From: Candidatus Giovannonibacteria bacterium RIFOXYD1_FULL_48_21
GTDB lineage: Bacteria; Patescibacteriota; Minisyncoccia; JACPKW01; UBA11713
Reading direction: 5' to 3'
NCBI GenBank assembly: GCA_001778985.1
Contig: MFIU01000001.1
Location: 1 to 50,110 of the forward strand
DNA length: 50,110 nt
Positions 4,866-47,786 of the stretch are shown here, piece after piece. How positions within the stretch are numbered: position 1 is the stretch's first letter; the number at the start of each line of letters is the position of its first letter. A program made the translations under genes and the position numbers. The notes under the pieces are model-generated. The model ran no database searches and had not been told where the DNA came from. It saw nothing but the letters and a program-made list of their open reading frames with translations.

Positions 4866-5516
4866 ATGGTAATAACTTACTACGGGGCTTCGTGCTTCAA
4901 AGTGGAATCAGGAAAGCTGGCCGTGGCCTTTGACCCGCCCTCCAAAGAATCGGAGCTGAAGCCGCCCCGTTTTTCAGCCGACGTCGTCCTGGTGAGCCAC
5001 AATCATCCCCGCCACAACGGCTTCCAAGAGCTTTCTGGCGAGCCTTTTTTAATTTCCGGGCCGGGCGAGTACGAAGTTAAAGGACTTTCCGTAAACGGCC
5101 TACCTTCTTTTCACGACAAAGAAAAAGGCGCCAAGCGCGGAACGAACACCATTTATCTCGTGGAGCTTGAAGAGGTCAAACTCTGCCATCTCGGAGATTT
5201 GGGCGCCCCGGAGCTCGACGCCGAAATCCTGGAGAAAATTGGGCAAGTGGACGTTCTCTTTGTTCCTTCCGGCGGCGAAGATGTCCTCGACCCGGCCGAG
5301 GCCGCTAAAGTCGTGAACCTCCTGGAGCCGAAAATCGTAATCCCCATGCACTACCAATTGCCCAAAACGCCTCAGAAGGGCGCTAAGATTGAAGAATTTT
5401 TGCACGAACTCGGCGAAAAAGAAATAAAACCGGAAGAAAAATTTACTTTCAAGAAAAAAGAGCTTCCGGAAGAAGGAACCAAAGTCGTGGTTTTAAAACC
5501 GGCCATAAGTTTATGA
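4866..5516 (+). CDS. MBL-fold metal-dependent hydrolase (UlaG-like)
   Basis: VITYYGASCFKVE...VLVSHNHPRHN...HLGDLG...VIPMHYQ. Confidence 0.8.
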   Translation: MVITYYGASCFKVESGKLAVAFDPPSKESELKPPRFSADVVLVSHNHPRHNGFQELSGEPFLISGPGEYEVKGLSVNGLPSFHDKEKGAKRGTNTIYLVELEEVKLCHLGDLGAPELDAEILEKIGQVDVLFVPSGGEDVLDPAEAAKVVNLLEPKIVIPMHYQLPKTPQKGAKIEEFLHELGEKEIKPEEKFTFKKKELPEEGTKVVVLKPAISL

Positions 5517-5517
5517 A

Positions 5518-5616
5518 CCCCGTTAGAAAATCTACAAGCCAAATAATTTCTGAAGTAGAACCTTATGCGCTAATGGTCGTATCCTCAATTACCAGCCTAA
5601 AGATTTTCTAACGGGG
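5518..5616. mobile_element. Short inverted-repeat element (copy 1 of CCCGTTAGAAAT family), flanked by TGAA direct repeats
   Basis: 16-bp perfect IR CCCCGTTAGAAAATCT/AGATTTTCTAACGGGG; TGAA at 5514-5517 and 5617-5620. Confidence 0.75.
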
Positions 5617-5870
5617 TGAATTTTTTCGATAAATTGGAGGAAATCAGGCAAAAACCGGTCGAAACCCGGCGGAGAATTTTAGTATTGACCCTTTTTCTAT
5701 CGATGGCGCTCGTAATCGGCCTCTGGTTAAGTCTTCTGAAGTTCGGAGGTACTGCCGCTAAATCCGCCTCAGCCGGCCCCCGGCCCTGGGAGGTCATCAA
5801 AGGAACTTTCCGGGCTTCCACCCAAGAGCTTAAAAAAACTTTACCGGCTGAAACTTATCTAAAAGAATAA
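5616..5870 (+). CDS. Single-TM hypothetical protein, GTG start
   Basis: One TM helix; GTG formed at element boundary. Confidence 0.6.
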   Translation: MNFFDKLEEIRQKPVETRRRILVLTLFLSMALVIGLWLSLLKFGGTAAKSASAGPRPWEVIKGTFRASTQELKKTLPAETYLKE

Positions 5871-12340: not shown

Positions 12341-12429
12341 AAAATTTTCTGAAATTCTCTCTCGGTTTTATCGCCATTTTAGTTCTGGCTTTGGCGATTT
12401 TTTACGCTCTGCAGTATCTTCAAGCTTGA
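12337..12429 (+). CDS. 30-aa single-TM microprotein, TTG start overlapping preceding stop (TTGA)
   Basis: LKNFLKFSLGFIAILVLALAIFYALQYLQA. Confidence 0.45.
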   Translation: MKNFLKFSLGFIAILVLALAIFYALQYLQA

Positions 12430-12465
12430 AGTGTTTACACTGAGCGAGCGTAGCGAGCCGAAGTG
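12430..12465. repeat. CTGAGC...CGAAGTGT repeat abutting tRNA 3' end
   Basis: AGTGTTTACACTGAGCGAGCGTAGCGAGCCGAAGTG; related copies at 12860-12883 and 38069-38129. Confidence 0.65.
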
Positions 12466-38024: not shown

Positions 38025-38068
38025 TTCTATATTGTAGCTCTTCGACAAACTCAGAGTACTTCGACTTG

Positions 38069-38129
38069 AAGTGTTTACACTGAGCGAGCCTTCGACTGGC
38101 TCAGGCCAAGACGAAGGTGAGTCGAAGTG
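38069..38129. repeat. Composite CTGAGC...GTCGAAG repeat ending at the tRNA-Phe 3' end
   Basis: AGTGTTTACACTGAGCGAGCCTTCGACTGGCTCAGGCCAAGACGAAGGTGAGTCGAAGTG. Confidence 0.65.
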
Positions 38130-38201: not shown

Positions 38202-38269
38202 GCTAGAAAAAGTATAAGAAAAATTCTGTGGGCGCGCAAGGACTTGAACCTTGGACCTTCTCGGCTTGG

Positions 38270-38375
38270 CCCGTTAGAAATTTTTTGTGCGCGGTGAGAG
38301 ATTTGAACTCCCGACCCTCGCTGTGTAAAAGCGATGCTCTACCACTGAGCTAACCGCGCATATATTTCTAACGGG
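38270..38375. mobile_element. CCCGTTAGAAAT-family inverted-repeat element (copy 2) carrying tRNA-Val(TAC)
   Basis: CCCGTTAGAAAT at 38270-38281 and ATTTCTAACGGG at 38364-38375; IR extends 1 bp on each side (G/C). Confidence 0.75.
38288..38359 (-). tRNA. tRNA-Val(TAC), complete, nested inside the element
   Basis: TCGCT-TTTACAC-AGCGA; GCGCGGT/ACCGCGC. Confidence 0.92.
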
Positions 38376-38427
38376 CTGAATAAACGAGACGCTCTGCCGA
38401 CTGAGCTACGCGCCCATTTTTATTTTT

Positions 38428-45526: not shown

Positions 45527-47284
45527 TTATTCTCTCGTTACCCTTAAGACTTCTTCTATCGTGGTAATCCCCTGCACGGCTTTCGCGATGCCGTCTTCGA
45601 GCATAGTCATCATACCTTCTTCTTTGGCGCGCTTTTCAATGTCGTCCGAAGTGGCGTTCGCCATAATCAGCTGTTTGACTGATTCGGTCATCGCTAAAAC
45701 TTCATGAATCCCGATTCGCTCCTGATAGCCGTCCGGGCATTCGGAAGTTGGTTCGGGTTTGTAAAAATTAATCGAAGACCAGTCTTCGTCGGCTTTGATA
45801 AGCTTGTATTCTTTTAAAAATTTTAAAATCCGCTCCAAATCCACTTCTCGCGAAAGCTCCTTCAGCTCATTCTTGGAAAGTTTGAATGGTTTTCGTGATT
45901 TACAAAGCCGCCGGACCAGCCTTTGCCCCACAATCGCTGTCACGGTGGAAGCGATTAGAAAAGGCTCAACTTTCATATCCAAAAGTCTGGGCAAAGCTCC
46001 GGCCGCGGAGTTGGTATGAAGCGTGGAGAGAACCAGATGCCCGGTCAAGGCGGCGTTTATCGCTAAAGACGCGGTTTCGTTATCCCGAATCTCGCCGACC
46101 ATTATGATGTCCGGGTCCTGCCTGACGAGCGAACGGAGTCCGGTCGCGAAACTGAAACCAATTTCCGGTTTCACCTGGGTCTGGTTGACCCTGGGCATGC
46201 GGTATTCAATCGGGTCTTCAATCGTGGAAATGTTGACCTCCGGAACGTTCAAAATATCAAGGACGGTGTAGAGGGTCGTGGTTTTGCCGGAGCCGGTCGG
46301 GCCGGTGGCCAGCACCATGCCCACCGGTTTTTTAATCGCCCGGTGCAATCTTTCCAGACTCTCTCCGAAAAACCCCAAAGTTTCCAGGGTGAAACTTTTG
46401 GAATTTTCCACGAGAAGCCGGAGCGCGGCCTTCTCCCCCTCGCCCACCGGCAGGATGGAAACCCGGAACGAAATTTTCTCCTCCGGGGTTTCGATTTTAA
46501 ATCTGCCGTCCTGGGGCAATCTGTGCTCATCCAGTTTCAAATTGGAAAGCACTTTTATTCTGGCGATTATTCCCGGAGCGACCTGCTTGGGAAGGAGCAT
46601 GGCCTCGCGCAGAATGCCATCCACGCGATATCTCACCACCACCTCTTTTTCCTGGGGCTCGATGTGGATGTCCGAAGCTCGCTCCACGATGGCGTGGCGC
46701 AAAAGGGTGTCTACGATTCTTACGATCGGGAGGTCTTCGGCGACTTTCTTCAAATCTTCGGTCCCTACTTCCCCCTTGCCTTCCTCCACCGGAGTCGTCA
46801 CCAAAACATCCCGGGCTTCTTTTTTTATGATATCTCCAAACTCCGCTTCCAAAGAGCGCCGGTACTGCGAGAGCACATGCTTAATGGAGGATTTGGTGGT
46901 GAGGCGCGGCAGAATTTTCAGATTGGAAGTCTTTTTTATAAAATCAATTGTTTCCAGGTTCTCCGGATCCAGCATGGCCACCTCCAAATTATTTCCTGAT
47001 TTTTTGTAGGCCACGATATTGTGCGTGCGGGCAATCGGCTCGGGAATCATCCGCAAGGCTTCGTCTGAAATTTTTTCGTGCTCCAAATCCACGAAAGGAA
47101 TGCCCAAAATATAAGCCGCGAGCCGGGCGAAATCGTCCTCGGTAATTTTTCCCTCCTTTATCAGGACCTCGGCGAGGTCCTCGCCGCTTTTCTCCGCTTT
47201 TTTCTCGGCAGCTTCAAGAGACTTAGCGTCCAGAAGTTCCGCGTCCAGCAAAAAAGCCTTAAGCCTTTGTGGTTCAATTTTCAC
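45527..47284 (-). CDS. pilB: Type IV pilus/type II secretion ATPase (PilB/GspE), GTG start
   Basis: GMVLATGPTGSGKTTTLYTVLDILN; TIEDPIEYRMPRVNQTQV; VRQDPDIIMVGEIRDNETASLAINAALTGHLVLSTLHTN. Confidence 0.94.
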   Translation of the reverse strand: MKIEPQRLKAFLLDAELLDAKSLEAAEKKAEKSGEDLAEVLIKEGKITEDDFARLAAYILGIPFVDLEHEKISDEALRMIPEPIARTHNIVAYKKSGNNLEVAMLDPENLETIDFIKKTSNLKILPRLTTKSSIKHVLSQYRRSLEAEFGDIIKKEARDVLVTTPVEEGKGEVGTEDLKKVAEDLPIVRIVDTLLRHAIVERASDIHIEPQEKEVVVRYRVDGILREAMLLPKQVAPGIIARIKVLSNLKLDEHRLPQDGRFKIETPEEKISFRVSILPVGEGEKAALRLLVENSKSFTLETLGFFGESLERLHRAIKKPVGMVLATGPTGSGKTTTLYTVLDILNVPEVNISTIEDPIEYRMPRVNQTQVKPEIGFSFATGLRSLVRQDPDIIMVGEIRDNETASLAINAALTGHLVLSTLHTNSAAGALPRLLDMKVEPFLIASTVTAIVGQRLVRRLCKSRKPFKLSKNELKELSREVDLERILKFLKEYKLIKADEDWSSINFYKPEPTSECPDGYQERIGIHEVLAMTESVKQLIMANATSDDIEKRAKEEGMMTMLEDGIAKAVQGITTIEEVLRVTRE

Positions 47285-47410
47285 CCCGTTAGAAATAGTC
47301 CCGTTAGAAATCCAAAATGAGACCGTTTACTGCTGGTAATAAAAACTTTATTTGATGTTGATAGCATTCCAAAAAATTTAATTTCTAACGGGACGCGATT
47401 TCTAACGGGG
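47284..47410. mobile_element. Nested CCCGTTAGAAAT-family inverted-repeat element (copy 3): inner element 47300-47392 within outer 47284-47410
   Basis: Two nested IR pairs; TTCA direct repeats at 47280-47283 and 47411-47414. Confidence 0.75.
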
Positions 47411-47411
47411 T

Positions 47412-47786
47412 TCATTCCCCTTCAAGGATCCCCTTAACTTTTTTCACTATCTCCGGCAGAGAATAGTTGGCTTTTACGAGATAAGCCTTCACCCCGAAAG
47501 AGGAAGCTCGTTCAATATCCTGGGGGGTTTCCAGATTGGTAAGGATGATGACCGGGATGGTTTTAAGCTCGGGATTTTCCCGCATATCTTCCATAATCTT
47601 AAACCCGTGTTTTTTCGGCAAAACCAAATCCAAGATAATCAAATCCGGATGCTTTTCCTGAATTTGCCGAAACCCGGTTTCGCCGTCGTTCGAAACCGTG
47701 ACTTCCAATCCGGCCTGCCGCAGCGCCTCAGCCAGCTGGTTCGCCAAAGCGGTATCGTCTTCGACTACTAATATTTTTTTAGGCAT
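47412..47786 (-). CDS. CheY-like response regulator
   Basis: KKILVVEDDTALANQLAEALRQAG; PDLIILDLVLPKKHGF; PVIILTN. Confidence 0.9.
   Translation of the reverse strand: MPKKILVVEDDTALANQLAEALRQAGLEVTVSNDGETGFRQIQEKHPDLIILDLVLPKKHGFKIMEDMRENPELKTIPVIILTNLETPQDIERASSFGVKAYLVKANYSLPEIVKKVKGILEGE

Follow-up and report, generated by a model that had tools for sequence, protein, structure and literature searches.

The stop/start junction at positions 5514–5620 of the window (the whole stretch of DNA that was analysed, 50,110 nucleotides) raises the question of how a palindromic element came to lie exactly where two genes overlap while leaving both of them readable. The 99-bp element at this junction has arms that form a 16-bp perfect inverted repeat, and its hairpin was stronger than those of 200 of 200 dinucleotide shuffles (z -6.5 as DNA). 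The features of this site and of the other copies in the window are summarized in Table 1. A preliminary description, made from the sequence alone, had proposed that the element was inserted into an ATGA overlap with duplication of a TGAA target. It left out the small frame opened by the persisting old ATG, the occurrence of the family in several phyla, and the tRNAs within other copies. Neither of the two outcomes that it named as refuting was obtained, as detailed below. We confirmed TGAA on both flanks. The upstream gene ends in TTA TGA as described, and the GTG of the next gene (5616–5618) uses the last G of the element and the TG of the duplicated TGAA. Both reading frames are undamaged, with the upstream TGA stop kept and the downstream GTG recreated in frame. 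The small frame that starts at the old ATG stops at a TAA located immediately 5' of this GTG. The gene directly after the 84-aa downstream gene is gyrA (PF00521).

Table 1. Features of the 5514–5620 site and of the other element copies in the window.
Feature	Position	Strand	Remarks
Upstream gene, metallo-beta-lactamase (MBL) fold protein, PF13483	4866–5516	+	Stop TGA 5514–5516 overlaps the original ATG 5513–5515
Original ATG of the downstream gene	5513–5515	+	Now opens a frame of 32 codons across the element, MNPVRKSTSQIISEVEPYALMVVSSITSLKIF, ending in TAA
Target duplication TGAA, left copy	5514–5517		Sequence and family statistics
Palindromic element, 99 bp	5518–5616		
Left inverted-repeat arm, CCCCGTTAGAAAATCT	5518–5533	+	Outer 13 bp are the family-wide core
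Right inverted-repeat arm	5601–5616	-	
Downstream gene, 84 aa, no Pfam match	5616–5870	+	GTG start formed by the last G of the element and TG of the duplicated site
Target duplication TGAA, right copy	5617–5620		
Third window copy, 108 bp	38269–38376		Whole tRNA-Val (TAC) inside; breaks another tRNA gene at the anticodon loop
tRNA-Val (TAC) inside the 108-bp element	38287–38359	-	No other gene found in the genome has this anticodon
Second window copy, 127 bp	47284–47410		TTCA on both sides (47280–47283, 47411–47414); 95-bp element nested inside
Nested inner palindrome, TCCCGTTAG...CTAACGGGA, 95 bp	47299–47393		Inside the 127-bp element

We consider it probable that the element at 5518–5616 is a copy of a widespread, non-autonomous, MITE-like palindromic mobile element that rebuilds start codons and is nearly transparent to translation. 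Both the element and its insertion are real, with good support. Its accommodation to translation is likely, judging from the sequences compared below, and it may also have a role in translational coupling.

The family was surveyed in 138 distinct copies from Parcubacteria, Omnitrophota, Syntrophaceae, and phage contigs; approximately 10 of them were retrieved by a pattern that fixes both flanks, and the picture was unchanged without these copies. The family-wide terminal inverted repeat is CCCCGTTAGAAAT. Its length is 13 bp because pairing of the arms, which is 95–100% at positions 1–13, falls to 29% at position 14. Arm positions 2–12 are nearly invariant. Position 1 (C-G 95, T-A 33, and G-C 3) and position 13 (T-A 98, A-T 21, G-C 8, and C-G 3) are variable, yet complementary, which may reflect a hairpin or fold-back stage, or cruciform repair. 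The elements measure 28–133 bp in total, most commonly 53, 29, 109, or 103 bp, and are too short to encode a transposase, as is the case for MITEs. Their interiors are variable and almost unrelated between most copies. The 29-bp form, which occurs in several genomes, is a perfect palindrome with a 3-base loop. Exact matches to the core arm CCCGTTAGAAA in the genome of the window (G000; 714,428 bases in 5 contigs) number 32 in forward and 27 in reverse orientation, which corresponds to approximately 30 elements; the backward-read control gave 0. Three copies are in the window. The one at 47284–47410 lies, on the minus strand, in the ATGA overlap of a response-regulator gene (47412–47786) and a T2SSE/PilB-type ATPase gene (45527–47284), and the GTG start of the latter takes the last base of the element.

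The duplication proposed for the single site proved to be a property of the family. The flanks match over exactly 4 bp in 90 of the 138 copies, over 3 bp in four, and over 5 bp in two, whereas 4-bp matches averaged 17.7 and never exceeded 30 when the flanks were permuted (n=2000). Therefore, the TGAA repeat is not a chance match. The duplications are TGAA (41 copies), TAAA (35), TCAA (5), and a few others. However, approximately one third of the copies lack a matching duplication, which counts against our explanation. At many loci (e.g., L103, L122, L219, and window 38265–38268), the flanks form a recurring mismatched pair in which (G)GCTTG faces TGAA or TAAA across the element.

We surveyed the position of the copies relative to start codons and stop/start overlaps. 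In G000, all TGAA-type copies lie on an ATGAA start (15 of 15: 14 recognised by the parser, one of which, at topA, came from an ATGAA-biased search, and the nested copy at 47284–47410). The window itself contains 72 intergenic TGAA sites versus 9 NTGAA starts (8 to 1). Insertion into an ATGA overlap, as described for the MBL junction, was found to recur: nine of the 15 copies occupy an exact overlap, and among the other genes of the window 5 of 41 have one (Fisher P = 7e-4). Two of these nine are in the window (5518–5616 and 47284–47410), and the upstream frames at the nine, 91 to more than 490 codons in length, end in the TGA of ATGAA. At ATGAA copies, the duplicated TGAA and the last base of the element (G or A) recreate GTG or ATG in the right frame, and the upstream stop is kept. 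The old ATG is retained and reads M-N-P-V-R-K/N into the element. In 11 of 14 G000 copies, no stop interrupts the read-through frame before the far arm, with 3.5 expected from dinucleotide-shuffled interiors (P = 5e-6); the count becomes 12 of 15 with the nested copy. In 11 of 15 copies, the length of the element places the stop of the small frame at a TGA that overlaps the new start, (A/G)TGA (P = 0.002 versus one third); these start-codon P values overstate independence and strength because copies within a subfamily are related. In many Omnitrophota copies, length plus 4 is a multiple of 3, and the result is an N-terminal extension of the gene, e.g., MNPVRNFDSSDHKQGISNGVK. We also considered a conserved peptide encoded by the element. 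Counts at the three codon positions of the 109-bp subfamily (91, 50, and 85) gave no clear support for selection on such a peptide.

The translation signals of this genome also bear on the question. A Shine-Dalgarno-like motif, even a weak one, precedes 5 of 36 window genes, and the 3' end of the 16S rRNA in G000 is GTGGAGTTTCTCC versus the usual GGATCACCTCC, an altered anti-Shine-Dalgarno sequence (L049, G000:C2 about 95,600). Since these motifs are rare and the 16S end is altered, a hairpin directly before a start codon should be less harmful than in most bacteria. An element with a CTCG duplication is located ~55 bp beyond this 16S rRNA 3' end.

Empty sites were examined in relatives. The predicted ATGA overlap is present at the MBL junction of the element-free relative G004 (L102: ...AGC TTA TGA GT, ATG AGT ATT TTT). 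The element is also absent at this junction in G001, G002, G003, and G005, in which the genes are a few bases apart and do not overlap, and G006 carries a different element there. Elsewhere, plain ATGAA starts were found at the empty sites of rplB, topA, ssb, an MBL exonuclease, a nucleotidyltransferase, and a glycosyltransferase. A tree built from seven concatenated proteins places G000, G005, and G006 in a single clade (support 0.997). Arms are numerous in G005 and G006, and a search for the start-type arm pattern in G001–G004 found none. Both G000 and G006 carry elements at uvrB, rplB, topA, and the MBL junction, and the ssb element of G006 is degenerate. The interiors at the common sites are unrelated or nearly so (z 1.0–3.8), and the G000 copies at rplB and topA are members of a G000 subfamily. 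These interiors do not support old insertions common to the two genomes; independent hits are indistinguishable here from an ancestral insertion followed by conversion.

The inverted repeat is short and the duplication is fixed at 4 bp, which suggests a DDE-type cut-and-paste enzyme that acts in trans. Such a transposase would cut TNAA (T, then G, A, or C, then AA) with a 4-nt stagger and join the ends of the element. When the target is ATGAA, the duplicated TGAA and the last base of the element would rebuild the start codon and keep the upstream TGA. From the old ATG, a small frame would cross the element, usually without an internal stop and with its end mostly at the TGA overlapping the new start. 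The element would thereby become a tiny coupled cistron between two genes, or an N-terminal extension (MNPVRN...ISNGV) when length plus 4 is a multiple of 3. Since such an element would be nearly transparent to translation, its insertion would be cheap in a gene-dense genome with little Shine-Dalgarno use, and copies would survive. A transposase with the ends of the element was not found at the Y1 and DDE_Tnp_1 loci or among long-distance arm pairs in G026. DDE_Tnp_1 was rejected as the mover: none of the Parcubacteria tested has it, and where it does occur, in Omnitrophota and Syntrophaceae, its loci are without such ends. In G026, two arm pairs spaced 1.8 and 3.0 kb apart were candidates for full-length elements but turned out to be separate short copies with ordinary genes between them.

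Accommodation to translation may not be needed to explain these observations. The same mobile element may insert at TNAA everywhere, and copies at starts may merely escape removal or decay slowest, the start codon lying in the arm. We regard this reading as possible, but short of probable. TAAA-type copies lie between genes, interiors vary freely, the codon-position pattern is weak, and many Omnitrophota TAAA/TGAA copies are away from starts, all of which it accommodates. However, it does not predict that all 15 TGAA copies in G000 are on starts despite the excess of intergenic TGAA in the window, or that open frames and the TGA-overlap phase are in excess. Going beyond our preferred reading of a start-rebuilding element, we tentatively speculate that the element is adapted to go unnoticed by translation, turning one ATGA junction into two, keeping the frame within genes, and bringing a replacement tRNA, and that it possibly moves through a hairpin intermediate that keeps the arms complementary; we hold this doubtful at present.

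Two other explanations are far less probable. Movement of a REP-like palindrome as single-stranded DNA by a Y1 (RAYT/IS200-type) transposase is very unlikely and largely refuted. The perfect hairpins, the 3-nt loop of the minimal 29-bp forms, the complementarity retained when positions 1 and 13 change, and the Y1 genes of G000 are consistent with this mode of transposition, but the presence of Y1 does not track that of the elements: Y1 genes are present in G001–G004, where the start-type pattern was not found, and absent from G026, which is 100% complete and has about 50 arms. Furthermore, there is no GTAG/CGTC tag, and no arm within one mismatch was found beside any Y1 gene examined. Exact 4-bp target duplications are not expected from Y1 enzymes, and they are present here. 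Also very unlikely is an immobile regulatory RNA hairpin (terminator, attenuator, or processing site) under selection upstream of genes. The elements have strong RNA folds (z about -4 to -7) with complementary changes in the stem and are placed at gene starts, as such a hairpin would be; however, this does not explain the 4-bp duplications, the empty sites in relatives, or the copies in open reading frames, tRNA genes, and phages. Rfam matched only tRNAs in the window, with no group I/II intron or other known RNA family, and conserved RNA structure beyond the main stem, sought in the largest subfamily, received weak support only.

A comparison with described systems suggests a new MITE/RPE-like family, with Rickettsia palindromic elements (RPE) and bacterial MITEs appearing to be its closest described elements. 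RPE insert in frame in genes (PMC10969869, PMC3733652). They resemble the present elements, as far as descriptions allow a comparison, in being short palindromic repeats of several families whose in-frame insertion adds peptides, here in Omnitrophota copies and a 29-bp phage-contig copy. However, the motif appears to differ, the hosts are others (Parcubacteria, Omnitrophota, Syntrophaceae, and phage contigs), and the present family has a clear 4-bp TNAA duplication, a concentration at start codons and ATGA overlaps, and some tRNA-carrying copies. Similar to bacterial MITEs, the elements are small, lack a transposase gene, have terminal inverted repeats and target duplications, and form subfamilies amplified within a genome. 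In contrast to MITEs, no parent insertion sequence was found in the searches described above, the interiors of most copies have almost no similarity to one another, there are perfect minimal forms of 29 bp, and bases 1 and 13 of the arms vary without losing complementarity. REP/BIME sequences (RAYT, Y1) are also palindromic, dispersed, and hairpin-forming; however, the flanks here are TNAA duplications rather than GTAG/CGTC tags, and Y1 does not track the copies. The 4-bp duplication also differs from the duplication-free insertion of IS200/IS605-type elements. A search of the literature for the motif, peptide, and phenomenon gave no match, with subscription journals mostly outside its coverage.

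The copies that carry tRNAs are the most surprising part of the family. A complete tRNA is present in six copies (three genomes, two families), each of which splits another tRNA gene at its anticodon loop: Val-TAC (window), Thr-TGT, and Thr-CGT in G000; Thr-TGT and Val-GAC in G026, the GAC anticodon being read by eye in a tRNA that was itself scored; and Thr-TGT in G005. The loci are window 38230–38420, L062 (G000:C3:20400–21600), L066 (G000:C4:105500–107300), L136, L141, and L152. The interrupted host tRNA apparently has the same identity as the inner tRNA, as suggested by host loop remnants read by eye (TTTTG...TAAA for TGT in three genomes, ...CG...TAA for CGT, TTTA... for TAC, and TTG... 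for GAC). In G000, no second gene was found for any of the anticodons of the inner tRNAs; an Asn (GTT) gene was not recognised among the tRNA genes listed for this genome, the completeness of which is given as 100%. The inner Thr-TGT is nearly identical in G000 and G026, which belong to different families, whereas the host halves differ. These copies have no matching duplication, with NNNG on one side and TNAA on the other. On the simplest reading, insertion into a tRNA locus would survive only if the element supplies the tRNA that it breaks. Integrative elements and group I introns also use tRNA genes, including the anticodon loop, as safe sites; however, the present elements carry a complete tRNA of apparently the same identity and would neither restore nor splice the host tRNA.

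The strict start-codon pattern, in one collection scan, matched Portnoybacteria, Buchananbacteria, several Omnitrophota genomes, and one Syntrophaceae genome. One Omnitrophota genome has about 50 copies, mostly of 53 bp, and several 53-bp Omnitrophota copies are in frame within open reading frames (e.g., ...INPVRNTKAITGENKISNGVNV...). A Mu-like phage contig with a MuA/MuB-like gene pair (L219, IMGVR_UViG_3300038429_000794) carries two copies, one of which (29 bp) is in frame within an open reading frame (GACPVRNWISNGVNWL), and another viral contig has an element at the start of a 430-aa frame. Scans of the viral collection that used a single arm yielded chance matches for the most part, and none revealed an autonomous element.

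Tiny gene-dense genomes offer almost no safe site for mobile DNA, and hitting and rebuilding a start codon would be the way in which this family gets round this. Such insertions would explain N-terminal extensions of the MNPVRN...ISNGV type and wrongly annotated starts in uncultured bacteria, and would add new coupled mini-ORFs between the genes of operons. The family would link unrelated phyla, phage contigs included, by shared transfer. Moreover, the tRNA-bearing copies suggest an element that repairs its own damage by carrying the gene it breaks.

We noted two further arrangements in G000. Three identical 102-bp copies are located directly 5' of three successive ribosomal protein genes (rpsH, rplF, and rpsE by sequence) at G000:C1:151484–153072 (L071), with right flanks of TAAATG or TAAATATG and left flanks of TAAG, TTCA, and TTCA. 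An identical 25-bp repeat, CTTGAAGTGTTTACACTGAGCGAGC, adjoins two tRNA clusters at window positions 12425–12449 and 38065–38089.
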